Shown piece after piece: positions 2-22,619 of a stretch of DNA of 64,000 nt (position 1 is the first letter of the stretch; every line of letters starts with the position of its first letter). The notes beneath the pieces are model-generated. The model was not told the origin of the DNA, searched no databases, and saw nothing but the letters and a program-made list of their open reading frames with translations. Both the position numbers and the translations under genes were made by a program. This DNA comes from Actinobacillus suis ATCC 33415 (GTDB lineage: Bacteria > Pseudomonadota > Gammaproteobacteria > Enterobacterales > Pasteurellaceae): contig NZ_CP009159.1 in the NCBI RefSeq assembly GCF_000739435.1, positions 2,126,001-2,190,000 on the forward strand, in the 5' to 3' direction.

Positions 2-172
2 GACACAGAAATTTTGGATGAAAATCTACCGCTTGAACAAATTCTCAAAGCGATCCCAATGGAGCGAATGGGCAACCCAGAGGAAGTTGCGCACACTGTA
101 GATTTCCTAATGGACGAAAAAGCGTCTTACATCACCCGCCAAGTGATTGGGGTGAATGGTGGATTGTGTTAG
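2..172 (+). CDS. 3-oxoacyl-ACP reductase (FabG-like), 3' end only
   Basis: Only the last 56 codons are inside the window, read in frame from base 2 to the TAG at 170-172. The visible tail has the short-chain dehydrogenase C-terminus: an IPMERMGNPEEVA stretch, then DFLMDEKASYITRQ and VNGG, as in FabG ketoreductases. The catalytic Ser-Tyr-Lys residues lie upstream of the window. It directly precedes a ketosynthase, so it is probably the ketoreductase of the aryl polyene pathway (ApeQ-like), reducing beta-ketoacyl-ACP with NADPH. Family assignment is firm; the pathway role is inferred from position. Confidence 0.85.
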   Translation, partial: DTEILDENLPLEQILKAIPMERMGNPEEVAHTVDFLMDEKASYITRQVIGVNGGLC

Positions 173-191
173 AAACGAAATAATGTGAATT

Positions 192-217
192 GTAGGGATG
201 GGTCCTGTGCCCGTCCG
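192..217 (+). repeat. REP element copy 1 (RAYT-type)
   Basis: A 26-bp element beginning with GTAG, followed by a G-rich arm, a TCCTGTG loop and a C-rich arm. This copy has GGATGGG against CCCGTCC, one step away from the perfect palindrome. The same element recurs at seven other places here and flanks the RAYT gene at 6294-6800. A 5' GTAG tetranucleotide is typical of REPs recognised by RAYT transposases. Confidence 0.8.
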
Positions 218-233
218 AAAAAATGGAAATATT

Positions 234-1484
234 ATGCAAACAAAACGAGTAGTTATCACCGGCATTGGTGCAGTCACCGCTTTTGGGCGAACCTGGTCTG
301 AAATCAAAGCGGCTTTTCAGCGCAAAGAAAATGCCGTGCAGAATATGGGGTGGCGGGATAAATATCCTGAATTGGAAGCTCAATTAGGTGCACCTGTGCC
401 AAATTATGCACCACCAAGTCATTGGAATCGTAAGCAACTTCGCAGTATGGGGCGTGTTTCACAGTTATGTGTAGATGCTGCCGAACAGGCTTTAACAAAT
501 GCAGGTTTGCTAAAAGATGGAGAAATTTCACCGCTTGTTCTTAATGGCAACATGGGGGTTGCAAGTGGTTCTAGCACTGGTTCAACCGCAGATGTGCGAG
601 ATATGGCAGAGCTGTTGATGACTGGTAAGTCAGACACTTTCAACGCCAGCACCTATGTTCGAGCGATGCCTCACACCACAGCGGCAAATATCGGTATTTT
701 CTTCGGGTTGCAAGGGCGAATTATTCCCACTTCAAGTGCTTGCTCGTCAGGTTCACAGGGCATTGGCTATGCTTATGAAGCAATTAAATACGGCATGATT
801 CCAATGATGTTAGCAGGTGGTGGGGAAGAGTTTTGTCCGTCTGAAGTATATGTTTTCGACAGCCTTTATGCGGCAAGTCGTAACAACAATAATCCGAAAG
901 GCACGCCACGTCCTTATGATAAAGAGCGTGATGGTTTAGTCATTGGCGAAGGGGCGGGTATTTTCGTATTAGAAGAACTAGAACACGCTCTAGCACGTGG
1001 TGCAAACATTATTGCAGAGGTAGTGGGTTACGGTGCAAATAGCGATGGTAGCCATGTGACTCAGCCACAAGCTAGTACGATGCAACGCTGTATGGAAATC
1101 GCCTTAAAAGACGCAGGTATTGAGCCTTCACAAATCGGCTATGTAAACGGACACGGCACAGCAACAGAAAAAGGCGACATTGCTGAAACCCAAGCTACCT
1201 CAGCCGTATTTGGCACCCGAGTAGCGATTAGCTCGCAAAAAAGTTACCTTGGGCATACGCTTGGTGCGTGTGGTGCATTAGAAAGTTGGTTCAGCATTGA
1301 AATGATGCGAGACGGTTGGTTTGCCCCAACGCTCAATCTGGAAAATGTGGACGAACGCTGTGGCGATTTAGATTATATTCGTGGCGATGGCAAAACCATT
1401 CAAACCGATTATGTGATGAACAACAACTTTGCTTTTGGTGGAGTGAATACTTCCCTTATTTTTAAACGTTGGACAGGGTGCTAA
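234..1484 (+). CDS. Beta-ketoacyl-ACP synthase (FabF/KAS II type) of the aryl polyene cluster
   Basis: A 416-residue condensing enzyme of normal FabF length. It has the complete Cys-His-His triad: Cys170 in SSACSSGSQG, His307 in NGHGTATEKGD and His341 in YLGHTLGACG. It should extend the polyene by decarboxylative condensation of malonyl-ACP. I chose ATG 234 (MQTKRVVITG). The longer reading from 198 begins inside a REP element and would add a REP-encoded leader. The stop overlaps the next start as TAATG. Comparable to the ApeR/ApeO ketosynthases; which one is not decided. Confidence 0.9.
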   Translation: MQTKRVVITGIGAVTAFGRTWSEIKAAFQRKENAVQNMGWRDKYPELEAQLGAPVPNYAPPSHWNRKQLRSMGRVSQLCVDAAEQALTNAGLLKDGEISPLVLNGNMGVASGSSTGSTADVRDMAELLMTGKSDTFNASTYVRAMPHTTAANIGIFFGLQGRIIPTSSACSSGSQGIGYAYEAIKYGMIPMMLAGGGEEFCPSEVYVFDSLYAASRNNNNPKGTPRPYDKERDGLVIGEGAGIFVLEELEHALARGANIIAEVVGYGANSDGSHVTQPQASTMQRCMEIALKDAGIEPSQIGYVNGHGTATEKGDIAETQATSAVFGTRVAISSQKSYLGHTLGACGALESWFSIEMMRDGWFAPTLNLENVDERCGDLDYIRGDGKTIQTDYVMNNNFAFGGVNTSLIFKRWTGC

Positions 1485-2395
1485 TGACGAAAAAAATTCT
1501 TTTAGTCAGTTATTCGCAAACAGGGCAACTTACTCGCTTGGCGGAAAGTTTTGTAAAACCATTGCAAAATCAACCGTACTTTTCCGTTGAACATTGCCAA
1601 CTTCAACCGCAAACCGCTTACGGCTTTCCGTGGCGGTTTCTGCCGTTTTTTAATACCTTTCCTGAAACGGTACATTTACAACCAGCCCCCATTCAGCCAG
1701 TACAATTTGCCAGTGAAAAGTACGACTTAGTCATCATCGCTTACACGGTCTGGTTTCTCTCGCCAAGCCAACCGATTACCGCTTTTTTACAATCGGATTC
1801 GGCGAAAAAAATTCTGCAAGACACCCCTGTGATCACGCTGATTGGTTGCCGTAATATGTGGCTACAAGCTCAAGATAAAATGAAAAGACTACTCGCTGAT
1901 TGCGGGGCAAATTTGGTTGGTAACGTAGTGAAAGTCGATCAATCAAACGACTGGGCAAGTTTTATTACCACGCCACTTTGGATGCTGACGGGCAAGAAAA
2001 AAGTGGGGAATTTACCGAGTGCAGGGATTGCGGAAAGTGAAATCCAAGATGCTTCTCGCTTTGGTGAAAAACTTTTGCAAACTTTTAATGAAAATCGACC
2101 GCTTGATCAGACCATTTTCCAAGGAATGGGTGCAGTGAAAATTGATGAAAAATTGATGATGAGCGAAAAAGTGGGGGCAAGAAGTTTCCATATTTGGGGC
2201 AAATTGCTGATAAAGTGCAGTCAAATTTCCCCAAGTTTACGCAAGTTTATTTTATGTTTTTATATTGTGTTTCTAGTGGCAATGATTTTAACGGTTGTAC
2301 CAATTTCAGCAGTGATAAAACGTTTACTTAAACCATTGTTACAAAAGAAATTGGATGAGCAGAAAAAATATTATGCGCAACCTTCTGGAGAATAA
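1484..2395 (+). CDS. darA: DarA-like dialkylresorcinol condensing enzyme, flavodoxin-like fold
   Basis: 303 residues from ATG 1484, which overlaps the preceding stop (TAATG). The N-terminus has a flavodoxin-like phosphate loop (LLVSYSQTGQLTR), followed by a YDLVIIAYTVWFLSPSQP strand. Near the C-terminus (about residues 250-280) there is one strongly hydrophobic segment. This layout is that of proteins annotated as dialkylresorcinol condensing enzyme, which sit beside a KAS III-like DarB in resorcinol and flexirubin clusters. The next gene is such a KAS III homologue. Known of the family: DarA/DarB make dialkylresorcinols from two acyl thioesters. That this pair does so is inferred. Confidence 0.65.
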   Translation: MTKKILLVSYSQTGQLTRLAESFVKPLQNQPYFSVEHCQLQPQTAYGFPWRFLPFFNTFPETVHLQPAPIQPVQFASEKYDLVIIAYTVWFLSPSQPITAFLQSDSAKKILQDTPVITLIGCRNMWLQAQDKMKRLLADCGANLVGNVVKVDQSNDWASFITTPLWMLTGKKKVGNLPSAGIAESEIQDASRFGEKLLQTFNENRPLDQTIFQGMGAVKIDEKLMMSEKVGARSFHIWGKLLIKCSQISPSLRKFILCFYIVFLVAMILTVVPISAVIKRLLKPLLQKKLDEQKKYYAQPSGE

Positions 2396-2398
2396 TAC

Positions 2399-2424: not shown

Positions 2425-2441
2425 AAAGATATTTGATAAAA

Positions 2442-2467
2442 CGGACGGGCACAGAACCCGTCCCTAC
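2442..2467 (-). repeat. REP element copy 3 (inverted)
   Basis: Opposite orientation to copy 2, ending in CTAC (the complement of GTAG). The arms are GGACGGG and CCCGTCC, again with matched changes on both sides. It ends one base before the ATG at 2469, so the darB-like ribosome-binding region lies inside or beside this hairpin. Confidence 0.85.
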
Positions 2468-2468
2468 A

Positions 2469-3623
2469 ATGAATTCGAATAAAATGCAAAACGTCTATAT
2501 CAATAAAATTTCTGCTTTCTTACCTAATGCTCCCGTTTCAAACGATGAAATGGAGACTGTACTTGGTATGGTGGGGGAAACACCGTCTCGAGTGCGTAAA
2601 ATGATCCTACGTTCTAATGGTATTCAGCAACGTTATTATGCGATTGCTCCGAAAACTCGCCAAGCGACACACACTAGCACTGAACTTGCGGTGCAAGCGG
2701 TCAAAAATTTAGGAATTTCTGCAAATGCGTTTACCAGTCTTGCGGTAGGTACGTCTTACCCAGACCAAATTTTACCGGGACAAGGCGTGATGGTACACGG
2801 CTTGCTTGAAAATGCGCCGCCGATGGAAGTGATGTCGATGTCGGGTGTATGTGCGGCTGGAATGGCGGCAATGAAACACGCTTTCAATGCGGTTCGCACT
2901 GGCGAGCATCAATGTGCGGTGGCGGTAGCGTCTGAATGTGCCTCTGCGATTATGCGTAGCGAAAATTTCAAGGCGGAAGCAGACAGCAAATTACTTGAAA
3001 ATGCGAGACCAGAAATCGGTTTTGAAAAAGATTTCTTGCGTTGGATGTTATCGGACGGTGCAGGGGCGGTGGCACTTTCCAATCAACCGAATGAAAAAGG
3101 GTTAAGTTTTAAAATCGACTGGATCGAACTGGTTTCTTTCGCCAATGAAATGCCTGTGTGTATGTACGCAGGTGGCGATGTGCAAGATGGTAAATTTGTG
3201 AGCTGGAAATCGGTTTCGCAAGCGGAGCGTGACGCACAAAGTTTTATGGCAATTAAGCAAGATGTGAAATTGCTGAATGAAAATATCGTGCGTTGCACCG
3301 TAGAAAATGCACTTAAGCGATTGATTTCAAAATATAATTTGCAAGCGGAAAATATTGACTATTTCTTACCGCACTATTCGTCAGGTTTCTTCCGTGATCG
3401 CTTGCTAGACGGCTTACGCAATATCAATTTTGAAATTCCGCAAGAAAAATGGTTCACCAACTTGACTTATTGCGGTAACACAGGTTCGGCTTCGATTTAC
3501 ATTATTTTGGAAGAATTTTCCCGCACTTTCCCACTTAAATCAGGGCAGAAGGTGCTGTGCTATGTGCCGGAGAGTGGACGATTTTCAAGTTGTTTTATGT
3601 TGTTAGAAGTGATAACGAAATAA
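2469..3623 (+). CDS. darB: DarB-like ketoacyl-ACP synthase III
   Basis: 384 residues from ATG 2469; ATG 2484 (MQNVYINKI) is equally possible, and neither has a clear Shine-Dalgarno. A TTG reading from 2433 lies inside the REP pair and is rejected. The protein has a KAS III/chalcone-synthase-like triad: Cys128 in MSGVCAAGMA, His302 in LPHYSSG and Asn337 in CGNTGSAS. Next to the DarA-like flavodoxin-fold gene it fits DarB, which joins two acyl chains on the way to 2,5-dialkylresorcinol. REP pairs lie on both sides of the gene. The family is clear; the DarB role rests on context. Confidence 0.72.
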   Translation: MNSNKMQNVYINKISAFLPNAPVSNDEMETVLGMVGETPSRVRKMILRSNGIQQRYYAIAPKTRQATHTSTELAVQAVKNLGISANAFTSLAVGTSYPDQILPGQGVMVHGLLENAPPMEVMSMSGVCAAGMAAMKHAFNAVRTGEHQCAVAVASECASAIMRSENFKAEADSKLLENARPEIGFEKDFLRWMLSDGAGAVALSNQPNEKGLSFKIDWIELVSFANEMPVCMYAGGDVQDGKFVSWKSVSQAERDAQSFMAIKQDVKLLNENIVRCTVENALKRLISKYNLQAENIDYFLPHYSSGFFRDRLLDGLRNINFEIPQEKWFTNLTYCGNTGSASIYIILEEFSRTFPLKSGQKVLCYVPESGRFSSCFMLLEVITK

Positions 3624-3630: not shown

Positions 3631-3656
3631 GTAGGGGCGTGTCCTGTGCCCGCCCG
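3631..3656 (+). repeat. REP element copy 4
   Basis: GTAG head with GGGCGTG-TCCTGTG-CCCGCCC; one arm position differs from the perfect palindrome. Paired head-to-head with copy 5, with an 18-bp spacer. Confidence 0.85.
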
Positions 3657-3674
3657 AATATCAACGAGAGTTTA

Positions 3675-3700
3675 CGGGCGGGCACAGGACCCGCCCCTAC
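3675..3700 (-). repeat. REP element copy 5 (inverted)
   Basis: A perfect GGGCGGG/CCCGCCC palindrome ending in CTAC, facing copy 4. It sits 9 bp before the start codon of the following small gene, so the pair could form a long hairpin in the intergenic transcript. Confidence 0.85.
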
Positions 3701-3709: not shown

Positions 3710-4102
3710 ATGGAAATTGAAGACATTCCCCAAGACGACAGCAAAATTTTCCAAGGGCAACGTAAAGTGATTTACGCTACCCGCAACGGAAAATTTGAAG
3801 CAGGTACTAGCACAGGCTGGCAAGCGGAAGAGTTTGCCACCGAACAAGCCGTGGACGAACTCAACCAACTCACCGAACAAGCTCTACAAGCGGTCAAAAA
3901 CGGTGAAAAATCGGTTATTTACTACCTAATGTACAAAAACCGCTACGATCTCCAAACTCTCGCCCAAGCCACAGGCTTTTGGCAATGGCAGATTAGACGA
4001 CATTTTAGACCGGAGATTTTTGCGAAGTTGAGTGAGAGGAAGTTGGAAGTGTATGCGAGGGGGTTTGGGATAAATGTTGATAAGTTGAAAGGAATTATAT
4101 GA
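3710..4102 (+). CDS. Small conserved-looking protein of unknown function in the APE/resorcinol cluster
   Basis: 130 residues, no signal peptide or membrane segment, rich in charged residues and Gln, mostly helical in appearance. The C-terminal half (QATGFWQWQIRRHFRP, then KLSERKLEVYARGFGI) could form a helix-turn-helix-like bundle, but I do not recognise a family. It follows a REP pair, and its TGA overlaps the start of the next gene (ATGA), which suggests translational coupling. It is G+C-similar to the pathway genes, unlike the AT-rich gene that follows. Its role is unknown; membership of the pathway is inferred only from position. Confidence 0.6.
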   Translation: MEIEDIPQDDSKIFQGQRKVIYATRNGKFEAGTSTGWQAEEFATEQAVDELNQLTEQALQAVKNGEKSVIYYLMYKNRYDLQTLAQATGFWQWQIRRHFRPEIFAKLSERKLEVYARGFGINVDKLKGII

Positions 4103-5259
4103 CAGAATCTGAGTTACAAGAATTGAAGAATAAAATATCTTTAATTTTGAAAGATATATCTAATCTATCAGAATCGGAATATCAGGCTATAGAGCAGGAA
4201 AAGATGATTAGAACTTCGAATGAAACAGAACTAAAGCCATATTATCTTATTTTCCTTCTTTTTGTGAGCTTTCTAGGTTATGGATATTCAGGAAAAGAAG
4301 AGAAAGTTAGTTTCACGATACCGATAAAATACAAAGGTAGTATTTTTTTATTACAACATCGAAAACTAGGAATGGCTCTTCTTTCTTTTAGTGGTGTATC
4401 TAAACGTGATAGTTTAAATGTTGTAAAAGTAATTAATAAAGCAATAAATAAAGCGAAACCTTTTTTTGATTATTATGCAAATGAAGCTTCTAACGCAAAT
4501 GATTTAAATGTTATCAATAATAGTATTCCATTTTTTGATAGATTGTGTTTCCAATTAGAATTATATAAGCAAAAAGTAAAAGAAATAGATGTATTTATTA
4601 TGAGTCATCAGAGTGATACAGGTGATATAGATGTATTAGCAGATTTTGTAAGTCGTTGGAATCAAGAAAATACACTACAAAGAGAAAAAAATTGGCTAGC
4701 AATTTCTGTAATAGATGCATTTTTCAGTTTTACAGAGCATGTGTTTATTCATTCGGCTATTTTGCAAGGGAAATTACAAACTAAACAGGAAATTGCTCAA
4801 TTAACAGTAAGTGAATGGAAGGATAAATTCAAAAGATGCATAGATATATCAGTTCCTAAGAATAGAGATTTTTACGATAAATTAAGTTTACTAAAAGATC
4901 AAATTCGTAATCATTTAACTCATGGCGCCTTTGGTAAAAATAATGAAGCATTTCAAATTCATTCTCCAGTGGGTGCTATACCAATGTTGATATCACCTAC
5001 AACATCTATGTTTTCTGTTGGCGAAAATTTAAAGTTTACAGATGAAGAAGCTATCAAAATTATAGAAGAATTTATTGAATATTATTGGGGTAGTAAAAAT
5101 TTTATAGAGAATATTTATATACAAAGTGGACTACCTGCAGTTTTGACTTTTGCTCTAGATAGTACATATAAAAGGGCTATGGTTTCTTTAGATGAAATGG
5201 AAAATTTCACACATTATTTATCTGAAGAATTTTGTAATTCAATGAATATGGATTGGTAA
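4099..5259 (+). CDS. AT-rich HEPN-like protein of unknown function
   Basis: 386 residues, markedly richer in A+T, Lys, Asn and Ile than the flanking genes. Residues 40-65 hold a hydrophobic stretch (YYLIFLLFVSFLGYGYSG). Residues 265-280 contain DQIRNHLTHGAFG, with Arg270 and His275 spaced as in the R-X4-6-H motif of HEPN domains; many HEPN proteins are RNases found in defence and toxin systems. Helical segments around residues 190-250 would suit a HEPN bundle. It overlaps both neighbours (ATGA upstream, TAATG downstream). The HEPN call rests on one motif; any RNase activity is inference. Confidence 0.55.
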   Translation: MTESELQELKNKISLILKDISNLSESEYQAIEQEKMIRTSNETELKPYYLIFLLFVSFLGYGYSGKEEKVSFTIPIKYKGSIFLLQHRKLGMALLSFSGVSKRDSLNVVKVINKAINKAKPFFDYYANEASNANDLNVINNSIPFFDRLCFQLELYKQKVKEIDVFIMSHQSDTGDIDVLADFVSRWNQENTLQREKNWLAISVIDAFFSFTEHVFIHSAILQGKLQTKQEIAQLTVSEWKDKFKRCIDISVPKNRDFYDKLSLLKDQIRNHLTHGAFGKNNEAFQIHSPVGAIPMLISPTTSMFSVGENLKFTDEEAIKIIEEFIEYYWGSKNFIENIYIQSGLPAVLTFALDSTYKRAMVSLDEMENFTHYLSEEFCNSMNMDW

Positions 5260-6245
5260 TGAACCATTTTTCCCATCAACACACCGCCCACTGCGAAAGC
5301 GGTGTGATGTCAACTTTATTAAAATCGCACGGGGCGGAGCTGAACGAGGCGATGGTCTTTGGTTTGGCGTCCGCTTTGACGTTTGTTTATCTGCCGATTA
5401 TTAAGGTCAGCGGAATGCCTTTGATTTCTTACCGTATGCAACCGAAGCACATCATCAAAAAGGTATCGAAATTGCTGAAAGTGCGGTTGAAAATGCAGAA
5501 GTTTTCTAACGAAACGGCAGGACAAATGGCATTAGATCAGGCGTTGCAAAATGGCAAATTAGTCGGTTTGCAGACATCGGTTTTTTGGCTGCCTTATTTT
5601 CCGTCTGAAATGCGTTTTCATTTTAATGCCCATAATTTACTTGTTTATGGTAAGGAAAACGATGATTATTTAATCAGCGATCCTGTATTTGAAACGGTGC
5701 AACGCTGTGCCGCTCAAGACCTGCAAAAAGCCCGTTTTGCTAAAGGCGCATTGGCGGCAAAAGGGCTGATGTATTATTTCGAGCAAACGCCTGATTTTTC
5801 GCAAATTGACTTGCCTACGTTAGTTCGCAAAGCTATTCGCAAACAAGCAAAACAAATGCTTGCACCACTGTTTTTTGTCGGTGTGAAAGGCATTCGCACT
5901 GTAGCGAAATCTATTGAAAATCTCGCTGCTTGCAAAAAAGGCGAAAAATATAACCGCTTGTATCTCGGGCATATCGTGAGAATGCAAGAAGAAATCGGCA
6001 CAGGCGGTGCAGGTTTCCGCTATTTATATGCTTATTTCTTAGAACAAGCCGCTGAAATTTGCAACGAACCCAAATTCAAACAGGCTTCCGAACAGATGAC
6101 CGAAATCGGCGACCTCTGGCGAGAATTTGCTATTCTTTGCGTTAAGCAATGCCGTAAGCCGAGTGTGGAAGGATATAAGGAAACGGCGGCGTTTTTGAGA
6201 AGGATCTCAGAGAGGGAAGAAAAATTATGGAGAATGTTGAAATAA
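5259..6245 (+). CDS. BtrH N-terminal domain / DUF4872-type protein
   Basis: 328 residues from ATG 5259, overlapping the upstream TAA by one base. The N-terminus has the BtrH_N pattern: HCESGVMSTLLKSHG (candidate catalytic Cys and His), then LNEAMVFGLASALTFVYLP. The middle has NAHNLLVYG and ISDPVF, typical of papain-like or cysteine-peptidase-like folds. The all-helical C-terminal half fits DUF4872. In butirosin synthesis BtrH transfers an acyl group from a carrier protein to the product. By analogy this protein could move a polyene or acyl chain from an ACP to an acceptor; that is inference. Confidence 0.75.
   Translation: MNHFSHQHTAHCESGVMSTLLKSHGAELNEAMVFGLASALTFVYLPIIKVSGMPLISYRMQPKHIIKKVSKLLKVRLKMQKFSNETAGQMALDQALQNGKLVGLQTSVFWLPYFPSEMRFHFNAHNLLVYGKENDDYLISDPVFETVQRCAAQDLQKARFAKGALAAKGLMYYFEQTPDFSQIDLPTLVRKAIRKQAKQMLAPLFFVGVKGIRTVAKSIENLAACKKGEKYNRLYLGHIVRMQEEIGTGGAGFRYLYAYFLEQAAEICNEPKFKQASEQMTEIGDLWREFAILCVKQCRKPSVEGYKETAAFLRRISEREEKLWRMLK
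5479..5487 (+). repeat. Hin-type DNA uptake sequence core
   Basis: Perfect AAGTGCGGT 9-mer, followed by TGAAAA, which suits the A/T-rich flank of the Haemophilus influenzae uptake signal. It lies within the BtrH-like gene. Four more perfect copies are at 7873-7881, 9879-9887, 10205-10213 and 19278-19286, all inside the pigment cluster. Confidence 0.7.
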
Positions 6246-6247: not shown

Positions 6248-6273
6248 GTAGGGGCGGGTCCTGTGCCCGCCCG
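6248..6273 (+). repeat. REP element copy 6, upstream of the RAYT gene
   Basis: GTAG plus a perfect GGGCGGG/CCCGCCC hairpin. It lies 20 bp before the RAYT start codon and mirrors copy 7 downstream of the gene. Confidence 0.9.
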
Positions 6274-6293
6274 AAATAATTGCCGAAACAGAT

Positions 6294-6800
6294 ATGAATA
6301 AACAACATTTACCACGTCGTAAAACTATCCGTTTACAACATTATGATTATTCCGAAAATGGATTATATTTCATCACTATTTGCGTTCAAGATCGTTTATG
6401 TTTATTCGGCAAGATTTTGAATGAGAAAATGGAATTAAACCCTGCTGGTAAAATGGTTGAGACTTGTTATTTGGAGTTGGAACAATATTTCCCTACAGTA
6501 AAATGTTTGGATTATGTGATTATGCCTAATCATATCCATTTTATTCTTCAGCTTGAAAATGCTATACATCTACCTCGTTATTCATTATTTGATGTGATTC
6601 AACGTTTTAAATCTCGAACGAATGTTGAATATATTAAAAATGTGAAACAAAAGAATTGGCAGCCTTTTAATAAGAGGTTATGGCAACGTAGTTATTATGA
6701 ACATATTGTGCGAGATGAAAAAGATTATTTGATAATTGCGGAATATATTGAGCATAACCCGTTACATTGGGCGTTGGATAAATTGTATATAGCAGAATAA
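6294..6800 (+). mobile_element. REP-associated tyrosine transposase (RAYT, Y1/HUH family)
   Basis: 168 residues, a complete single-domain Y1 transposase. The HUH metal-binding motif is His80-Ile81-His82 in MPNHIHFIL. The candidate nucleophile is Tyr134 or Tyr135 in LWQRSYYEHIVRDE. The N-terminus (RLQHYDYSENGLYFITICVQ) is characteristic of TnpA-REP proteins. RAYTs cut and rejoin single-stranded REP hairpins and are held responsible for REP spread; they usually do not move as IS elements. The gene is flanked by REP copies in inverted orientation, a REPtron-like unit, and it sits inside the pigment cluster between the BtrH-like and ABC genes. Confidence 0.92.
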
Positions 6801-6803
6801 TTT

Positions 6804-8799: not shown

Positions 8800-8812
8800 T
8801 GTGGTACATACT

Positions 8813-15487: not shown

Positions 15488-17128
15488 ATGAACAAAAATC
15501 CTATTGCATTAAATCCTATTTGGCTCAGTGATGATTTTTTCCAGCGAGTAACACAAATTTCACAGCAATTCCAACAAGATAATGTGAGGTCTGTTGGCTT
15601 ATGGTTAGAAGATGCCGCCCAATTTGCTTGCGTCTTATTAGCTTGTTTCCGTGCCGATGTGAAGGTGTTATTGCCCCCTAACTTGTTGGACGAAAATCAG
15701 ATCTGGCTACAACAAAATGCCGATTTCCTATTTGATGGCATTCGTTTCCAAAGCTATGGGCATTTACAAAAAGTTGTGGATTTTTTACCGCTTGTAGATT
15801 GGCAATGCCAGACAGAAGTTTGGTTAAAAACCTCAGGCAGCAGTGGTGAGGCAAAGATTTTAAAGAAAACCGCTTCACTTTTATGGCAAGAGGCAATTGA
15901 GGTCGGCAAGTTTTTACCTTTCCAACAAAATGGTACCCATACAATCGGTAGTGTAAGCGTTCAGCATTTTTATGGTTTGACGTATCGAGTTTTGATTCCA
16001 CTTTGGCATTTCTTGGAAGGACGAGCATGGACAATAGGTCGTGAGCAATTAGTTTATCCCGAATATTTATTGGCGGAAAGTAAGCAGAGTTCGCAGTGTT
16101 TATGGATCACGAGTCCAGCTTTACTTTCTCGTTTAAATTTGGCATTACCTCATTTAGCGGAACAACATGTTGTTGGAGTTATTTCGTCCGGTGGTGCGTT
16201 AGACGAGCAACTTGCCGAACAAGTTCAGACGGCAATGCGTTGTCCCGTATTAGAGGGCTATGGCAGTACGGAAACAGGTTGTATCGCTTTTCGTCAGCCT
16301 TATCAGCACTGGAAGCCTTTGCAAGATGTACATTTAGGTACAAATGAGCAGCAAGCGTTATGGGTTGAATCTAGCCGTACGCAAGGGAGAGAGCAAACAG
16401 CAGATGCCGTGGAATTTTTTGGTGATGGATTTGAATTATTAGGACGTCTAGATCGCATTGTTAAATTGGGTGATAAAAGAGTGTCATTAGTGAAAATTGA
16501 ACAGGATTTATTAAAGCACTCATGGGTTGCTGATGCTTATGTCGCACAACACCCTGAGAAACAGCGAGCGGTAGCATGGTTGGCATTGAGTGATGAGGGC
16601 ATTGATTGTTTACGTGAGAATGGCCGTAAATATTTGACGGATCATTTGAAACAAACACTTGCTATGACACAAGAAAAATTTGCTTTACCACGTTATTGGC
16701 GTTTAACCGACAAGTTACCTCGCAATGCTCAATCTAAAATCTTGCGCCAAGATTTCGAGTCTGTTTGTCAACACAATGTTTGTGATCCAATCTGGTTGCA
16801 TACGATTGAACAAGACAATTCTCTTGAATTAATAGGAAAAGTGCCACTAGATTTGCATTATTTTAAAGGGCATTTCGCAAATTTTCCGTTGGTACCGGGA
16901 GTAATTGAGTTGCAATGGGTAATAGAACAACTCCCTCGCTTATTACAGAGAGAAATTGAAATTGAGCGAGTGGATAATTTGAAATTCCAACAGTTTTTAC
17001 GTCCGCATGATGACGTACATTTAACACTTAATTGGGATGTTGTAAAACAGCGGGTAAAATTTCAGTTGAAAGGTAACGGTGAGATTTGTGCAAGCGGTCT
17101 AATTATCGAGAAAAAATGCGGAGCATAG
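15488..17128 (+). CDS. AMP-ligase fused to a hotdog-fold dehydratase (ApeH-ApeI-like)
   Basis: 546 residues in two parts. Residues 1-430 form an AMP-ligase with KTSGSSGEAK (114-123), YGSTETG, GRLDRIVKLGDKRVSL and KLPRNAQSKI. Residues 435-546 form a hotdog domain with GHFANFPLVPG (candidate catalytic His462), as in FabZ/FabA-like ApeI dehydratases. The fusion joins starter activation with the 3-hydroxyacyl-ACP dehydration step. The ligase half is a paralogue of the product of 13601-14944, on the other side of the membrane-protein gene. Whether both ligases are active cannot be told; the main motifs are intact in both. Confidence 0.87.
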   Translation: MNKNPIALNPIWLSDDFFQRVTQISQQFQQDNVRSVGLWLEDAAQFACVLLACFRADVKVLLPPNLLDENQIWLQQNADFLFDGIRFQSYGHLQKVVDFLPLVDWQCQTEVWLKTSGSSGEAKILKKTASLLWQEAIEVGKFLPFQQNGTHTIGSVSVQHFYGLTYRVLIPLWHFLEGRAWTIGREQLVYPEYLLAESKQSSQCLWITSPALLSRLNLALPHLAEQHVVGVISSGGALDEQLAEQVQTAMRCPVLEGYGSTETGCIAFRQPYQHWKPLQDVHLGTNEQQALWVESSRTQGREQTADAVEFFGDGFELLGRLDRIVKLGDKRVSLVKIEQDLLKHSWVADAYVAQHPEKQRAVAWLALSDEGIDCLRENGRKYLTDHLKQTLAMTQEKFALPRYWRLTDKLPRNAQSKILRQDFESVCQHNVCDPIWLHTIEQDNSLELIGKVPLDLHYFKGHFANFPLVPGVIELQWVIEQLPRLLQREIEIERVDNLKFQQFLRPHDDVHLTLNWDVVKQRVKFQLKGNGEICASGLIIEKKCGA

Positions 17129-17130
17129 CC

Positions 17131-17859
17131 ATGGCAGAGAAATCTAACATTGTTGCATTAATACCTCATTATAATCACGTTAATACGATTGCGAAGGTCA
17201 TTGAGCAATTGCTAGGGTTTGGTTTGCCAGTATTAGTTGTAGATGACGGTTCGAATGATGCTCAGCAACAAATATTGAAACAGATAACTCAACAGCCAAA
17301 TGTATCCGTCGTATTCCGCTCACAGAACGGGGGAAAAGGTGCGGCAGTTAAAACAGGGTTACAATGGGCTTATCAGCAAGGTTTTACGCATGCAATACAA
17401 GTCGATGCGGACGGGCAACACAATTTAGCTGATATTGAAGCAATGGTGGAAATATCTAAGCAACATTCAACGGCGCTTATTTGTGGTAAACCGATTTATG
17501 GTATTGATGCGCCTAAAGCACGTTTGTATGGACGTAAAATCACTAATTTCTGGATTGCGATAAATACCTTATCAACTCAGATTGAAGATGGAATGTGCGG
17601 TTTTCGTTTGTATCCTTTAGCGTTAGTTGCGCCTATTCTTACTCAAGAAAAACTAGGTAATCGAATGGATTTTGATATTGAAATTCTTGTACATTGCCAG
17701 TGGCGTAAGATACCAATGATTTGGGTAGAAACTCCCGTAAAATATGATGAAGATGGCGTATCTCATTTTAGAGGTTGGGATGATAATTGGCTGATTAGTA
17801 AAATGCATGCCCGATTGTTTTTCGGGATGTTGGGTCGAGTGTTTACGGGGAAATTTTAA
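17131..17859 (+). CDS. Glycosyltransferase family 2 (ApeJ-like)
   Basis: 242 residues from ATG 17131, two bases after the preceding stop; the reading that starts at 17086 overlaps the ligase gene and is not needed. GT-A fold features: VALIPHYNH at the N-terminus, VLVVDDGSND (nucleotide-sugar binding), QVDADGQH (DXD-type metal site) and a later EDGMCGFRLYP. It lacks a C-terminal membrane anchor. It may glycosylate the polyene or its lipid carrier. Its stop overlaps the next gene (TAATG). Confidence 0.87.
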   Translation: MAEKSNIVALIPHYNHVNTIAKVIEQLLGFGLPVLVVDDGSNDAQQQILKQITQQPNVSVVFRSQNGGKGAAVKTGLQWAYQQGFTHAIQVDADGQHNLADIEAMVEISKQHSTALICGKPIYGIDAPKARLYGRKITNFWIAINTLSTQIEDGMCGFRLYPLALVAPILTQEKLGNRMDFDIEILVHCQWRKIPMIWVETPVKYDEDGVSHFRGWDDNWLISKMHARLFFGMLGRVFTGKF

Positions 17860-18794
17860 TGACGGTTACTCGAAAGAATCAGCGACACTGGGCGAATCAG
17901 CAAGAGCGAGGAACCCATTTTTTTCTAATGCTAACTCGCCTCATTGTGCAATATTGTCCACTTTGGCTAATCCGCTTTTTTACTTTTTGGGTCGTGTTGT
18001 ATTTTTATTTAACCTCAAGTAAAACTCGCCGATATATTGCAGAATATCAGCAAAATCTGACCGCTTATTTCCCTCAAGTGAGATTAAAAGGAGCGACTAT
18101 TTTTCGTCAATTTCTTGCCTTTGGAGAGGCTATTACAGACCGATTTGCCGTTTGGCAACATCAAATACATTATGCGGATTTAGTGATTGATGATAGCGAA
18201 AATCTCTATGCAGAGATTGATGCTGGCGGAAGAGGGCAAATATTAATTTGTTCTCATTTCGGTAATATTGAAATTTGTCGAGCTTTACTTAATAACGGCC
18301 ATCATCCGAATTTTAAACTCAACGCACTGGTTCATAGCAAACATGCTGAAGCGTTTAACCAAGCATTAGTTGATGCAGGAGCAGATGAATTACCTCTGAT
18401 TCAGGTAGAAGATTTAGATGCGCACATAATGTTGGAGTTGAGTGAGCGGATTGAGCGTGGCGAATGGATCGCTATCGCAGCTGATCGTGTGCCTGTAAGA
18501 GGTGATAAGACCCAAACAGTTAATTTTTTAGGTAAGTTGGCTGAATTTCCAGAAGGAGCATGGTTATTAGCGAGTTTGTTGAAAGCACCGATTAATACGA
18601 TTTTTAGTTTAAAAGAAAATGGCAAATATTGTTTGAAGCTTCGGCATTTTTCTTCGCCTATTAAAGGAAGAGGAAAGATCCGTCAGCAGCAGATTCAACA
18701 AGCTATGCAAGATTATGCAGATTTATTAGCGAATGAATGTGCAAAAAATCCATATTTATGGTTTAATTTTTATGATTTTTGGCAACAAAAATAG
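17859..18794 (+). CDS. LpxL/HtrB-like acyltransferase
   Basis: 311 residues. One N-terminal membrane segment (residues about 33-52) is followed by the lauroyl-acyltransferase motif: His133 and Glu138 in CSHFGNIEICR (HX4E), and AADRVPVRGD near residue 207. This is the Kdo2-lipid A acyltransferase family, but in APE clusters the homologue is thought to act on the polyene. Together with the PlsC-like gene it gives two acyltransferases for product lipidation. Start is the TAATG overlap at 17859. Confidence 0.87.
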   Translation: MTVTRKNQRHWANQQERGTHFFLMLTRLIVQYCPLWLIRFFTFWVVLYFYLTSSKTRRYIAEYQQNLTAYFPQVRLKGATIFRQFLAFGEAITDRFAVWQHQIHYADLVIDDSENLYAEIDAGGRGQILICSHFGNIEICRALLNNGHHPNFKLNALVHSKHAEAFNQALVDAGADELPLIQVEDLDAHIMLELSERIERGEWIAIAADRVPVRGDKTQTVNFLGKLAEFPEGAWLLASLLKAPINTIFSLKENGKYCLKLRHFSSPIKGRGKIRQQQIQQAMQDYADLLANECAKNPYLWFNFYDFWQQK

Positions 18795-18827: not shown

Positions 18828-19253
18828 ATGAAATTAGTGAAAGTAGCAGGTGTAGTAAGTACCGCATTAATTATGGCAGCGTGTGCCCCTCGTAATACAA
18901 CACATTACTATTCTATTCAGGAAGCGTTAAATTCACCGCAAGCAAAAGAAGTGCTTGATCCAAGTGTAAAACTTTATTTCGGAAAAGCGGCTCCTGGGAA
19001 GGTTATTCGTAAGGGGATCACGACCAATCCAAAAACAAACGCGCTTAATAAAAGTGATTTAGAAGCGTGCCAATGGGCGTTCTTGTCCGCAGTTAAAAAA
19101 TTCCAGGAACGAGCAAAGAAAGAAGGTGCGACTAAAGTAGGTAATTTAGTGAGTTATTATAAGAAGAATGAGTATAAAAGTACCTCACAATTTGAATGTC
19201 ATGCGGGACGCAGTATTGCAGGCGTAGCGTTAAAAGGCGACATTGTGAAATAA
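18828..19253 (+). CDS. Small lipoprotein of the family often labelled 'excinuclease ATPase subunit'
   Basis: 141 residues with a signal peptide and a lipobox-like IMAAC (Cys19). The body has SIQEALNSPQAKEVLD, KLYFG, TNPKTNALNKSDLEACQWAFLS and FECHAGRSIAGVAL, a pattern seen in a group of small secreted proteins that databases commonly name excinuclease ATPase subunit. Nothing in it resembles UvrA: no Walker motif and no zinc finger. Function unknown. A good Shine-Dalgarno (AGGAG) precedes the ATG. Confidence 0.72.
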   Translation: MKLVKVAGVVSTALIMAACAPRNTTHYYSIQEALNSPQAKEVLDPSVKLYFGKAAPGKVIRKGITTNPKTNALNKSDLEACQWAFLSAVKKFQERAKKEGATKVGNLVSYYKKNEYKSTSQFECHAGRSIAGVALKGDIVK

Positions 19254-19296: not shown

Positions 19297-19752
19297 ATGA
19301 GAATGAAAAAACATATTTATTGTAAGCATCAATCCGAGTATGAGATCCAGTTCTTTGATGTAGATTCAATGAACATTATGTGGCATGGACATTATGTGAA
19401 ATATCTGGAAATGGCTCGTTGTGCCTTTTTGGAAGAAATTAATTATACCTATGATGTTATGCGTCAAAATGGTTTTGCCTATCCGATCGTGGCACTGGAT
19501 TTAAAATATGTCAAACCGGCACTCTTTCGCCAAAGAATTAGAGTGGAACTTGCATTAATTGAATATGAAAGTTGTATTCGTTTTGATTATATTATTGTTG
19601 ATGCGCTAACGGGCGAAAAGTTAACGAAAGGCTCAACGACACAAATGGCAATAGAGATTGAGAGTCGAGAAACACAATTTGAAACACCGTTATCATGGCG
19701 AAATGCTGTGCAAAATTTTGAGGGTTTTCGACCGCTTGTGGGGGAATGTTAA
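19297..19752 (+). CDS. Acyl-CoA/ACP thioesterase, 4HBT hotdog family (ApeK-like)
   Basis: 151 residues. Single hotdog domain with the YEIQFFDVDSMNIMWHGHYVKYLE signature region of 4-hydroxybenzoyl-CoA thioesterases; Asp21 or Asp23 is the candidate catalytic acid. Would release the finished or stalled chain from its carrier. ATG 19303 is an alternative start two codons in. Only 7 bp follow the upstream terminator-like hairpin, so expression may depend on read-through. Confidence 0.85.
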   Translation: MRMKKHIYCKHQSEYEIQFFDVDSMNIMWHGHYVKYLEMARCAFLEEINYTYDVMRQNGFAYPIVALDLKYVKPALFRQRIRVELALIEYESCIRFDYIIVDALTGEKLTKGSTTQMAIEIESRETQFETPLSWRNAVQNFEGFRPLVGEC

Positions 19753-20336
19753 TGAAAAAATATCTACTTTTATTTTTACTTTTCTTTAGTCCACTTTCAT
19801 GGGGCTTTTCTCAAACTGAGCTGATTCAACAATTACAAAAACCTCAATCTATACAAGGTAATTTTATCCAGCAACGCTTTTTAAAATCGCTAGCTAAACC
19901 GATAGTCGCAACAGGAAAATTCACCTTAGTGGCACAAAAAGGGTTGCTCTGGCATATGGAGAAACCTTTTATGAGTCAAATGAAAGTTACCTCTCAAGGG
20001 ATCTCTCAATGGAATGGTTCAACTTGGGTGGCTAATTCGAGTATGGGGCAAGCAGAGCAAATCCAATTATTTTTAGGGTTGCTTAGCGGAGATATATCTG
20101 CATTATCAAGCCAATTTGATTTAAGTCTTACCGGAACTGCTTCAAATTGGCAGTTATCGCTCAAACCAAGCAGTTTATTGATGCAACAAATTTTCGAAAA
20201 AATTACTCTTGAAGGCAGTAATATTGTGAGTTCGATCGAATTGAAAGAAAAACAAGGTGATCGAACAGTTATTAAGTTTAGCAAACATCAGCTGAACCAG
20301 CCGCTCGCAGAAAGTATTTTATCAGCCCTACAATAA
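19752..20336 (+). CDS. LolA-like outer membrane lipoprotein carrier family protein (ApeL-like)
   Basis: 194 residues from ATG 19752 (TAATG overlap with the thioesterase stop). Signal peptide of about 19 residues (KKYLLLFLLFFSPLSWG), then the LolA-type half-barrel region: SIQGNFIQQRFLKSL, GKFTLVAQKGLLWHMEKPF and QWNGSTW. Periplasmic. In APE systems a LolA-like protein is thought to carry the hydrophobic polyene across the periplasm, working with the MMPL exporter encoded next. Confidence 0.85.
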   Translation: MKKYLLLFLLFFSPLSWGFSQTELIQQLQKPQSIQGNFIQQRFLKSLAKPIVATGKFTLVAQKGLLWHMEKPFMSQMKVTSQGISQWNGSTWVANSSMGQAEQIQLFLGLLSGDISALSSQFDLSLTGTASNWQLSLKPSSLLMQQIFEKITLEGSNIVSSIELKEKQGDRTVIKFSKHQLNQPLAESILSALQ

Positions 20337-20345
20337 GTAAAATTT

Positions 20346-22619
20346 ATGCAAAAAATGACCGCTTACCGCATATTATATGCGGTATTTTTATTCGTGATTT
20401 TCACATTATTTGGTATACAGAAATTAGCCTCATCATGGTTTGAGAGCGATTTACGATCACTTTTGCCCCAAACTCAGCAGTGGTCAAGTGTACAGATGGA
20501 AGCTGATTATCGACAAGAACAGCAACTTAATCGTCAGATCATTGCACTTGTGGGACATGCTGATGCTAAGCTGGCTTTTTCTATTGCAACAGAAATAAGC
20601 TCACAGTGGCAAGAAAGTGGGCTATTTGAGCAAATTTATTCCAAAACAGAACCTAATCTCGCCCAGTTTAAAGCAGAAATCCAATTATTAAAATGGGCTG
20701 TATTACCAAAGGAAATTAAGTCTCAATTATTAGACACGCCACAAACTTATTTTCAAGCGTATGCGGAACAGATTGTTAATCCATTTAAACAAAACCAACT
20801 GGTTTCATTTGAGCAAGATTGGCTGGGGGTTGGGCGGTTTGTTATACCACAAGCTCAGCAGCTATCTAATATGCGCTGGAATGCGGAAAATGGCATGATT
20901 TTTACGGAAAATCAGTCCAAAACATGGGTTATGTTGCGAGCTGAGTTAAAGCAATCTGATTTATTGAATACCGAACAATCCTTACCAAGTTTATTAGCAG
21001 AAAATCGCCGATATGCCACTGCATTACAAGCAGAATTAAATGTTACCGGTACATCATTATTTGCTATGGTTGCTAAACAGCAGGCAGAAAGTGAAAGCAC
21101 ATTTATGAGTAGTCTTGGTGTTAGCTTAACCCTTATCCTATTAATCGCTGTTTTTCGTTCTTGGCGAGTATTATCGCTGTTTATTCCTATTTTAATTGGT
21201 ATGGGAGCCGGAATTGCCGTTACGGTATTTTTGTTAGGAAAAATTCACTTACTAACACTTGTTATCGGTACCAGTTTAGTAGGTGTGCTAATTGACTTTC
21301 CGTTACATTGGTTAGCCTCTTCATTATCAGTTCGTAATTGGCAAGCTGAACAAGCAATGAAAGATCATCAATTCACTTTCTTTATTAGTTTGATGGTGAC
21401 TTTACTGGGTTATGGTCTGCTTTGGTTTACGGATTTACCGATATTAAAACAAACAGCTTTATTCTCTGCTGTAGCATTGGTAGCGGCAATTATCGCTACA
21501 ATATTGTTTTTACCACCAATGTTTGTTCGTGTAGATTTTTCTCGCCGGCCTCGTTTTCCTATAGATAATATTAAATTACCGATGTTATTAAAGCATAAAG
21601 GTATAAAGATATTATTTTGTTTACTCGTCATCACTGGTGTATTTCGTTCGGAATGGCAGGATGATATTCGTCAGTGGGTTGCTCTGCCACATGGGATGTT
21701 ACAGGAAGCACAAAAAATTAGTGAGTTAACTGGAATTGATTTAGGTAGCCAATATTTTCTTATTGTTGCAGATAATGATGAACAATTATTAGCCAAGACC
21801 GAATTACTGTCGCAGAGGCTTACTACGTTAGGTCAGTCTCATCAAGCATTGAGCCAATGGCTTAGTTCCGAGCAAGAACAGCAACAATTCAAGTTGCAAT
21901 TGAGTGCAAAAATTCAACCGCTTGCATATCAACCGCTAATTGAATTGGGAGTGGAGAGCGAGGAAATAATACAATCCATCCATCAATTACAAAGACAATC
22001 GCCAGTTTCTTTACAGCAAGCCTTAAATACAAAATTGGGACAGGGGTGGAAAACACTCTATCTTGGTAAATTAAGTTCGAATCAAGTTGCTACTTTAATT
22101 AAAATTAAGCAAATGCAGAGTGCTGAACATTTATCTGCTTTGGCGAATAACAAAGATATCTTTTGGCAAGATAAACGAGCTTACTTAAATCAGGCATTTC
22201 AACAGACACGGAACGATGCCGCTTGGTTAAAAGGCGTATCGTTTTTACTTGCAGGTTTAGTATTATGGTGTTTGTTTGGACGAAAAGCGGCCGTTCAAAT
22301 ATTAGTACCTCCAATCATAGCGATTGTAACAACGGTTGCAATATTTGGTTGGCTTGCATTACCAATCACGTTATTTACGATGTTCGGCTTGCTGTTGGTT
22401 TCTGCAATTGGTATTGATTATACAGCTTATATGCAACACTCAGCAGAAAATTTAGCCACAAAAATAACCGCTATTTTGTTGGCGGCTACTACTACAATGA
22501 TTTCTTTTTGTTTATTGGCGTTTAGCGCCACACCTGCAGTAGCAAGTTTTGGGTTAAGTGTGAGTATTGGTCTCGGCATCTGCGTCTGCATTATTTTTAG
22601 TCGAAAATATATATTTTAG
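20346..22619 (+). CDS. MMPL-family exporter (ApeM-like)
   Basis: 757 residues. One membrane segment at the N-terminus, a large periplasmic domain, a cluster of five or six segments (about residues 258-400), a second periplasmic domain and a second cluster from about residue 630, the two-fold RND/MMPL layout. It probably moves the lipidated polyene from the inner membrane. The C-terminus ends abruptly inside the last hydrophobic stretch (GICVCIIFSRKYIF), slightly shorter than I would expect. It is the last gene of the cluster, and its stop lies only 20 bp before the rplJ promoter. Confidence 0.87.
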   Translation: MQKMTAYRILYAVFLFVIFTLFGIQKLASSWFESDLRSLLPQTQQWSSVQMEADYRQEQQLNRQIIALVGHADAKLAFSIATEISSQWQESGLFEQIYSKTEPNLAQFKAEIQLLKWAVLPKEIKSQLLDTPQTYFQAYAEQIVNPFKQNQLVSFEQDWLGVGRFVIPQAQQLSNMRWNAENGMIFTENQSKTWVMLRAELKQSDLLNTEQSLPSLLAENRRYATALQAELNVTGTSLFAMVAKQQAESESTFMSSLGVSLTLILLIAVFRSWRVLSLFIPILIGMGAGIAVTVFLLGKIHLLTLVIGTSLVGVLIDFPLHWLASSLSVRNWQAEQAMKDHQFTFFISLMVTLLGYGLLWFTDLPILKQTALFSAVALVAAIIATILFLPPMFVRVDFSRRPRFPIDNIKLPMLLKHKGIKILFCLLVITGVFRSEWQDDIRQWVALPHGMLQEAQKISELTGIDLGSQYFLIVADNDEQLLAKTELLSQRLTTLGQSHQALSQWLSSEQEQQQFKLQLSAKIQPLAYQPLIELGVESEEIIQSIHQLQRQSPVSLQQALNTKLGQGWKTLYLGKLSSNQVATLIKIKQMQSAEHLSALANNKDIFWQDKRAYLNQAFQQTRNDAAWLKGVSFLLAGLVLWCLFGRKAAVQILVPPIIAIVTTVAIFGWLALPITLFTMFGLLLVSAIGIDYTAYMQHSAENLATKITAILLAATTTMISFCLLAFSATPAVASFGLSVSIGLGICVCIIFSRKYIF

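Follow-up and report, generated by a model that had tools for sequence, protein, structure and literature searches.

A predicted aryl polyene-dialkylresorcinol pigment cluster with two cargo slots, set between rplA and rplJ in Actinobacillus suis

Introduction

In Bacteroidetes, flexirubin clusters are described as yielding a polyene carboxylate esterified with a dialkylresorcinol (DAR) (PMC3992019, passages on these clusters), and in 2014 arcuflavin of the proteobacterium Azoarcus sp. BH72 was assigned by mass spectrometry as a polyene-DAR ester; in the genome table of that paper, 9 of 39 genomes hold dar genes within or beside a polyene cluster (PMC3949708, passages on arcuflavin). Aryl polyene (APE) genes alone, apeA-R, are described in E. 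coli CFT073 and Frischella perrara, with a yellow pigment in Frischella, in a paper whose main text does not contain the terms dialkylresorcinol, resorcinol, darA, darB or flexirubin (PMC10104596). Here we describe a cluster combining both gene sets in Actinobacillus suis ATCC 33415 (Pasteurellaceae; genome G000, 2.50 Mb in a single contig). Most of it lies in a 64,000-nucleotide stretch of contig NZ_CP009159.1 (G000:C1:2126001-2190000), hereafter the window; other genomes and loci are cited by G and L numbers.

We consider it probable that the cluster belongs to the arcuflavin/flexirubin kind of hybrid APE-DAR pigment clusters, that it has moved between Pasteurellaceae and that it carries two cargo slots. 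The cluster type is known; its location in a ribosomal operon, its changing gaps and a family of repetitive extragenic palindromes (REPs) bound to it are unexpected.

With the Azoarcus system, the cluster shares an APE-type (xanthomonadin-like) gene set, darA (by position here), darB, a BtrH-like gene, ABC ATPase and permease genes, an acyl carrier protein (ACP) and a ketosynthase (KS). Azoarcus, however, has two unlinked polyene loci, one of which lies some 20 locus tags from the dar locus, and encodes a XanB2-type chorismatase and a halogenase, whereas the cluster described here is one co-directional block in a ribosomal operon, with cargo slots, and neither enzyme was recognised among its scanned proteins. 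The Azoarcus dar locus is also listed with a Prevent-host-death/PilT pair between its ABC genes (PMC3949708, passages on that locus). A DarG-family protein model is common to our cluster and the Bacteroidetes flexirubin clusters, but the flexirubin_DarG (132.7 of 170 bits) and FlxB (275.8 of 340 bits) models both miss their cut-offs, and no aromatic-amino-acid (tyrosine ammonia-) lyase was found among the scanned cluster proteins, the rest of the genome not having been searched for one. The APE gene set is that of apeA-R, here split around a dar block.

In open-licence PubMed Central (PMC) text, including the relevant passages of PMC8549736, PMC9007364 and PMC6469967, we found no report of a polyene-DAR hybrid in Pasteurellaceae; 36 APE clusters are described in A. 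actinomycetemcomitans, with no mention of a resorcinol linkage in the passages concerned (PMC8549736), and yellow pigmentation is described for Pasteurella felis in the corresponding passage of PMC13076348.

Results

An APE gene set surrounds a dar gene set

The cluster is 25.4 kb long, starting 2.8 kb upstream of the window and ending at window position 22619 (Table 1). A preliminary description of the window had placed it at 2..22619, which is too short at the upstream end; within those bounds, moreover, the open reading frames (ORFs) at 4099-5259 and 6294-6800 are variable cargo rather than pathway genes. There are 31 ORFs in the cluster, 29 without these two, all on the + strand. Their order is a 137-aa lipoprotein-like protein, ApeO, ApeP, ApeQ, ApeR, DarA, DarB, DarG, cargo, DarH and a REP-associated tyrosine transposase (RAYT); then ABC ATPase, ABC permease, DarC, DarJ, DarK, DUF4410 lipoprotein, lipoprotein and an ApeC-type chain length factor (CLF); and finally PlsC-like protein, two ACPs, AMP-ligase, membrane protein, AMP-ligase/ApeI fusion, GT2, LpxL-like protein, a 141-aa protein, 4HBT, LolA-like protein and MMPL. 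The ape and dar letters follow resemblance and position relative to published clusters, and several are our own assignments.

Every gene class that the preliminary description had named occurs on the + strand between 198 and 22619: KS, CLF-type KS, three ACPs, two AMP-ligases, ApeI-like dehydratase (fused to an AMP-ligase), PlsC-like and LpxL-like acyltransferases, GT2, 4HBT and LolA-like protein. The APE and dar sets are indeed contiguous, together with the BtrH protein and an ABC exporter. Its MMPL gene can be kept as an RND/MMPL-type protein, although the NCBIfam HAE3 model gives 60 bits, far under the cut-off of 352; a DarG-family protein at 3710-4102 and, at 9097-10529, another KS/CLF-like pair are to be added to its list. 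APE markers over cut-off are PF22817 (ApeP), PF22818 (ApeI-type), PF13561 (FabG-type), PF00550 and PF00501. ApeO matches PDB 6qsp_A (E=4e-87) and the ApeC-type protein 6qsp_B, the two chains of what we take to be the ApeO:ApeC complex.

Of the DarA/DarB pair proposed earlier, DarB belongs to the StlD/DarB family: its closest solved structure is StlD (PDB 5gk0, E=1.1e-126), and the Cys, His and Asn motifs, presumably catalytic in that fold, are conserved in the alignment of the two. DarA is placed by position, its ORF adjoining darB in 31 of the 35 Pasteurellaceae genomes in which we found darH. In DarH itself, Cys12, His125 and Asp141 (numbered on the 328-aa form starting at 5259) are invariant in alignments of 13 Pasteurellaceae proteins and of 35 proteins from several families, consistent with a papain-like triad. 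DarH is of the enzyme class that would be expected to join polyene and resorcinol, presumably by forming the ester.

DarA excepted, the gene set and its family placement are solid as sequence assignments, and we regard a flexirubin/arcuflavin-like ester product, predicted from these genes, as likely. The earlier label "flexirubin-like" agrees with the presence of both gene sets and DarH, but does not extend to a flexirubin cluster in the strict sense, with the flexirubin_DarG and FlxB models under cut-off. Nor would the product be notable in the way the preliminary description supposed: proteobacterial polyene-DAR hybrids have been in print since 2014 (PMC3949708, passages on arcuflavin), and darH occurs in a quarter of the family genomes searched.

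Two junctions of the cluster are cargo slots

We tallied the gaps between neighbouring pathway genes in the 35 darH genomes, counting each genome once per junction, calling gaps of more than 250 bp wide and excluding junctions seen in fewer than four genomes. The darG-darH junction is wide in 24 of 33 genomes and the darH-ABC ATPase junction in 20 of 35, together 44/68, against 25/454 for the other 29 junctions (Fisher 8e-29, kinship ignored). Ten junctions, each seen in 16-32 genomes, are never wide, including DarB-DarG (32), DarC-DarJ (31), DarJ-DarK (30), ApeO-ApeP (22) and ApeQ-ApeR (22). Lesser slots are ABC-ABC (5/32), DarA-DarB (4/31), ApeP-ApeQ (4/22), ABC permease-DarC (3/31) and MMPL-137 (3/8), the last filled by a 411-aa protein that by eye is a flavin-dependent oxidoreductase or halogenase. 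One of the 44 wide gaps (G120) has no ORF of 80 aa, the minimum length for listing cargo. The 43 ORF-holding segments of the main slots have a median GC of 0.33, compared with a mean of 0.43 for pathway genes, and 53 of the 54 ORFs in the two main slots have the operon's orientation. Among 18 loci from outside the family, darG-darH is wide in none, while darH-ABC is wide in a few Neisseria loci and a Cardiobacteriaceae locus (the distance in N. wadsworthii is unreliable, a different ABC gene having been matched).

The window cluster and that of its congener G006 are 93.6-95.9% identical with three clean breaks: at 4037-5268 the window ORF stands against an ankyrin ORF of G006, at 8800-8812 G006 alone has a restriction insert, and at 10569-11108 the window alone has the DUF4410 lipoprotein. 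The 3' end of darG varies together with the cargo. The darG-darH and darH-ABC junctions are cargo slots, at which single genes or short operons differ while the flanking pathway genes stay.

Some of this cargo has strong PADLOC matches: Shedu SduA (6e-130) in G083, with a 66% identical homologue in Avibacterium gallinarum (G024); Drt8 (DRT8; 3e-130) in G031; ThsB (3.5e-81) and a PtuA-like ATPase (3e-37) in G126; and HEC-01A (3e-150) with HEC-01B (4e-77), a candidate defence system, in G043, with homologues in G048. In G006, the insert between ABC permease and darC is 8.4 kb long and holds type I restriction genes (HsdR 1.7e-116, HsdM 1.5e-116). Strong defence matches therefore occur at cluster junctions in five genomes by direct scan and two by homology, out of 35; the ten proteins tested were chosen after Pfam hints for several of them, so that the hit rate is that of a non-random sample. 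Two other cargo proteins gave weaker matches, and PADLOC had no match for a HEPN_Swt1-type ORF and a 281-aa ORF of G015. By Pfam and clustering, further cargo includes RhuM (ten genomes and G038), Schlafen AlbA_2-type proteins (seven), an ankyrin protein (one) and HEPN_Swt1 (one, slightly under cut-off); PIN- and GNAT-type toxin-antitoxin-like pairs were seen by eye in G047/G083 and G038.

Other slot contents were noted in passing. In Neisseria sp. HMSC077D05 and N. sicca (L083, L084), three related tandem ORFs of about 250-290 aa fill the darH-ABC ATPase junction. Rodentibacter-type clusters (L059, L063, L049) hold, by eye, an Xre-like regulator, a beta-barrel-like protein and a small lipoprotein between ABC ATPase and permease. 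A two-gene unit at darG-darH (L144, L149, L150, L151), with one protein of about 300 aa and a membrane-like one of 139-145 aa, recurs in G024, G028, G083 and G118, its first ORF being split in G024; it may be a defence pair.

In the window, the darG-darH slot holds a 386-aa ORF that overlaps darG by four bases and extends to the darH start. It matched no Pfam, NCBIfam or PADLOC model (best Pfam E=0.13) and no PDB sequence up to E=1. Its homologues come from one other of 369 genomes of the class and five plasmid records. On the Erythrobacteraceae plasmid CP115967, the homologue stands between methyltransferase, DEAD/DEAH helicase and DUF2384 genes on its upstream side and genes for an AAA ATPase and an ATP-dependent helicase downstream, and there is an integrase nearby; the Variovorax homologue is preceded by an AAA ATPase, and two rhizobial copies lie near integrases. 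Residues R270, N271 and H275 are invariant in all six homologues, and RNxxxH, or Rx4-6H, is the motif of HEPN RNases, making the ORF a candidate HEPN-type defence protein. A virus origin was considered and rejected, with no relative in a viral-contig pattern scan or among phages, and the ORF has no DNA-level match in E. coli.

A REP family is nearly confined to the cluster

The darH-ABC slot of the window holds a RAYT gene between two inverted REP palindromes with the repeat GGGCGGGTCCTGTGCCCGCCC. Paired REPs also stand at ApeP-ApeQ, DarA-DarB and DarB-DarG, the last forming a REPIN. With up to three mismatches, G000 has ten REP copies, nine of them in the cluster; the single copy outside lies at window 57608-57628. 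At the same stringency, the cluster holds 5/5 copies in G118 and only 4/9 in G116, and the cluster-free congener G003 has one copy; with at most one mismatch, the cluster holds 5/5 in G006 and 7/7 in G008. The arrangement is that of described REP/REPIN-RAYT systems, in which a RAYT gene has flanking inverted REP hairpins and REPs are paired, but REP classes of pseudomonads and stenotrophomonads range from tens of copies to more than a thousand in a genome (PMC3686654, passages on copy number), which makes a REP family almost restricted to one cluster unusual. RAYT and REPs are not needed for cargo, since both are missing, in the stretch searched, from 18 of the 29 genomes in which a main slot is wide.

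The cluster splits a ribosomal operon

Upstream of the cluster are secE, nusG, rplK and rplA, and downstream rplJ, followed by ORFs that we take from general knowledge to be rplL, rpoB and rpoC and that are matched in relatives. Among nine genomes of the genus, that of A. suis included, six have an empty rplA-rplJ site of about 270 bp and three (G000, G006, G008) have the cluster there. The same site is filled in G131, of another genus; in G038 the rplA side is visible, followed by the contig end; and in G093, of a third genus, a truncated remnant runs from rplA through the 137-aa protein, ApeO, ApeP, ApeQ, ApeR, DarA, DarB and a 30-residue start of darG to rplJ. Overall, darH lies within 25 kb of rplA or rplJ in 10 of the 35 genomes: besides G000, G006, G008, G131 and G038, it is downstream of rpoC in G031 and G129, downstream of rplJ in G128, upstream of rplJ in G027 and upstream of secE in G047. 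In the remaining genomes, darH and rplA/rplJ are far apart or on separate contigs.

In Bibersteinia trehalosi (G031), a second, partial copy of the rpoC 3' part (L054:14675-15268) lies between the complete rpoC and the cluster, ending about 160 bp before the first cluster ORF, as would a recombination scar. In the split operon, rplA is directly followed by a terminator-like hairpin with a T-run and a stem of 14 pairs (RNA fold -19.9 kcal/mol, z -5.8), which comes before the first ORF; judged by eye, the five filled sites printed have it and none of the six empty ones does. A promoter-like site overlaps this hairpin (5 such sites found, 2.8 expected).

The cluster is scattered across Pasteurellaceae

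We found darH in 35 of 140 Pasteurellaceae genomes, in 15 of 43 genera, which rules out that the cluster is unique to A. suis. DarB is over cut-off in 35 genomes, 34 of them shared with darH; the exceptions are G031, which has neither darA nor darB and a stop in darH, and G093 with its remnant. ApeP is found in 51 of the 140: in all 35 with darH and in 16 of 105 without (Fisher 6e-21, kinship ignored), a co-occurrence that fits a joint product. Named carriers among the best 80 of 200 confirmed relatives include Rodentibacter, Aggregatibacter, Avibacterium, Conservatibacter flavescens and Bibersteinia and, beyond the family, Neisseria, Eikenella, Conchiformibius, a Cardiobacteriaceae metagenome-assembled genome, Gilliamella/Frischella, Pseudomonas and Rheinheimera. 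A plasmid origin was dropped: the DarH matches in 57 plasmid records all have less than 60% identity, and 11 of the 15 listed carry a BtrH-domain annotation. In E. coli there is no DNA-level match to darH.

A DarH tree of 47 rows places the 27 proteins from Pasteurellaceae in one group (100/98), nearest to Neisseriaceae and a Cardiobacteriaceae row. The window copy stands with Rodentibacter copies at weak support (84/79), and that of A. vicugnae joins Conservatibacter (95/93), so that the copies of the two Actinobacillus genomes seem not to be sisters. The Hin-type uptake signal AAGTGCGGT occurs 87 times in the genome (44 for the reversed-pattern control) and six times in the 25.4-kb cluster, where 0.88 are expected (P=3e-4); the rest of the window has 22 signals of the Apl type and none of the Hin type. 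The DarH tree and these signals together moderately support an import of the cluster from a relative of the Hin type, for example Rodentibacter. Further Hin-type clumps in G000:C1, near 0.956, 1.31, 1.75, 1.97 and 2.47 Mb, suggest more imported regions.

Discussion

From the gene content we infer the following chemistry. An AMP-ligase would load an aryl acid, possibly 4-hydroxybenzoate supplied by UbiC (chorismate lyase, encoded elsewhere in G000), onto an ACP, and ApeO/ApeC with ApeQ, ApeP and the ApeI-like enzyme would lengthen this starter to an aryl polyene. DarB and DarA, with DarC, DarJ and DarK, would condense and aromatise two acyl chains to a DAR; the BtrH-type DarH would esterify this with the polyene acyl-ACP, and the acyltransferases, LolA-like, MMPL and ABC proteins would bring the pigment to the envelope. 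The block probably moved between Pasteurellaceae by homologous recombination after natural transformation; our proposals for how cargo is exchanged, and for its putative defence activity, likewise derive from sequence comparison.

Several observations weigh against this account. DarA has no family over cut-off, and family, PDB and plasmid searches gave no confirmation of it; DarB misses the stricter resorcinol_DarB model NF053539 (451 bits, cut-off 550) and is not adjacent to darH in G018 and G079. The darH gene is broken in at least two relatives (G016, G031). The rplA hairpin leaves no clear promoter for the cluster. UbiC is present in 13 of 15 genomes tested, among them 8 of 10 with darH and five cluster-free congeners; the two genomes that lack it, G131 and G117, both carry darH. 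As for cargo, there is no assignment to defence for many of the slot ORFs (RhuM, RAYT, lipoproteins, ankyrin), and a PADLOC scan of 34 cargo ORFs listed only its 25 commonest families and so gives no per-ORF hit rate. Finally, 196 of 4953 stretches of the same length in the genome also have six or more Hin-type signals.

The alternatives differ in which part of the account they replace. The cluster might make an APE lipid and a free DAR in parallel, with DarH acylating the resorcinol with something else and no polyene-DAR ester arising. The APE half has PlsC- and LpxL-like acyltransferases, a GT2 and carriers, enough for a plain APE lipid, and ApeP does occur without darH; but darH never occurs without ApeP in the 140 genomes, and for the Azoarcus dar locus, with its BtrH gene, the product was assigned as the ester arcuflavin by mass spectra (PMC3949708, passages on arcuflavin). 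We consider parallel products unlikely. It is also conceivable that the cluster lies silent behind the rplA terminator, a passenger that has no promoter of its own and is decaying in the family, as the hairpin with the first ORF close behind it, the remnant in G093 and the broken darH genes could indicate. Against such decay, the pathway ORFs of the window align with relatives over almost their full length, and the promoter-like site overlapping the hairpin, or read-through from rplKA, could supply transcription; this reading strikes us as decidedly improbable.

The cargo invites two other explanations. One takes the wide junctions for ordinary noise from insertions and the defence matches for coincidence. 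It would suit the non-defence part of the cargo (lipoproteins, RAYT, ankyrin) and the filling of the lesser slots, but is hard to square with the excess at two junctions, the ten junctions that are never wide, the recurrence of strong defence matches and the near-uniform orientation of slot ORFs; we give it very little credence. Delivery by a mobile element, whether RAYT/REP or an insertion sequence, in place of homologous recombination across conserved flanks, would be in keeping with the RAYT gene between inverted REPs and with REPs at several of the same junctions. It is doubtful, though, with most wide-slot genomes lacking both RAYT and REP in the stretch searched, with no integrase noticed among the named slot ORFs (many being unnamed), and with a darG 3' end that changes with the cargo, as recombination predicts.

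A hybrid pigment cluster with two cargo slots is our preferred reading. One extension of it, which we put forward as a speculation that is unlikely to hold, is that the pigment operon acts as a transformation-borne chassis for phage-defence genes: the dar genes would serve as homology arms, REPIN-RAYT would seed junctions, co-oriented single-gene cassettes would be swapped, and read-through from rplKA would couple pigment and immunity to growth. Chromosomal defence hotspots are described with the same fixed flanks and variable anti-phage contents; those of E. coli are places where mobile elements integrate, and 18 of these places are tRNA loci (PMC10121019, PMC10250203, passages on hotspots; the E. 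coli details from the former). Here, by contrast, a biosynthetic operon supplies the flanking genes, and the cargo is usually one to three operon-oriented genes; in open-licence PMC text we found no report of a defence hotspot in an APE cluster.

Should our reading be right, an arcuflavin-like pigment would be made by several Pasteurellaceae that live with hosts (Actinobacillus, Rodentibacter, Aggregatibacter, Avibacterium, Conservatibacter), and the yellow colonies described in this family would gain a testable chemical basis. A biosynthetic operon would double as a defence hotspot, its slots offering new ground on which to look for unknown anti-phage genes, with the 386-aa ORF of the window as one candidate, and the 25-kb rplA-rplJ insertion would amount to a natural test of how much splitting the rplKAJL-rpoBC unit tolerates.

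Neighbouring features

No Rfam family reached its gathering threshold in window 1-34000, so that no L10 leader was scored. The promoter-like site before rplJ (Table 1) is present in filled and empty sites alike.

Table 1. Features of the cluster and its downstream border (window coordinates unless given otherwise)
Feature	Coordinates	Strand	Matches and remarks
137-aa lipoprotein-like ORF, ApeO-type KS, ApeP, ApeQ/FabG	L007:11223-14172 = G000:C1:2123223-2126172		ApeQ/FabG crosses window start
ApeR-type beta-ketoacyl-ACP synthase	198..1484	+	NF006587 694 bits, cut-off 470
DarA (by position; N-terminal flavodoxin-like)	1469..2395	+	weak sub-threshold FMN_red/flavoprotein matches
DarB ketosynthase	2433..3623	+	NF005293 (StlD/DarB) 553 bits, cut-off 450, E=2.6e-166
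REPIN in the darB-darG gap, two inverted REP palindromes	3635..3696		DNA hairpin z = -10
DarG-family small protein	3710..4102	+	NF053536 178 bits, cut-off 70
Cargo, darG-darH slot, 386-aa ORF	4099..5259	+	GC 0.28, GC at third codon positions (GC3) 0.17; RNxxxH motif
DarH, BtrH-related acyltransferase	5253..6245	+	NF053550 514 bits, cut-off 300, E=1.3e-154
REP palindromes 6252-6272 and 6805-6825	6252..6825		inverted, flank RAYT gene
RAYT, darH-ABC slot	6294..6800	+	GC 31%; Y1_Tnp PF01797 40.5 bits, cut-off 23; NF047646 74.6 bits, just under cut-off 80
ABC exporter ATPase	6839..7561	+	PF00005
ABC-2 exporter permease	7555..8799	+	PF12698
DarC-type ACP	8801..9097	+	PP-binding exactly at cut-off
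DarJ-type ketosynthase	9097..10056	+	PF00109/PF02801
DarK/CLF-like protein	10035..10529	+	weak Ketoacyl-synt_2, under cut-off
DUF4410 lipoprotein	10608..11099	+	absent at corresponding place in G006 cluster (94-96% identical)
Lipoprotein-like	11113..11550	+	NF040519 33 of 80 bits
ApeC-type CLF	11557..12309	+	PF13723 180 bits; PDB 6qsp_B E=3.7e-18
PlsC-like acyltransferase	12288..13058	+	PF01553
ACP 1	13068..13325	+	PF00550
ACP 2	13329..13583	+	PF00550
AMP-ligase, probable activator of aryl starter	13601..14944	+	PF00501
Membrane protein	14935..15483	+	no family over cut-off; presumably ApeG-like, by position
AMP-ligase fused to ApeI-like dehydratase	15488..17128	+	PF22818 39.5 bits, cut-off 28.5; PF00501
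GT2 glycosyltransferase-like	17086..17859	+	PF00535
LpxL-like acyltransferase	17859..18794	+	PF03279
Small conserved protein (141-aa)	18828..19253	+	lipoprotein-like by eye; kept in relatives
4HBT thioesterase	19297..19752	+	PF13279
LolA-like carrier	19746..20336	+	PF03548
RND/MMPL-type exporter	20346..22619	+	HAE3/HpnN under cut-off; conserved
Promoter-like site before rplJ (TTTACA-17-TAGAAT)	22640..22668	+	3 such sites in stretch, 1.8 expected
rplJ, start of downstream half of split operon	22890..23402	+	PF00466

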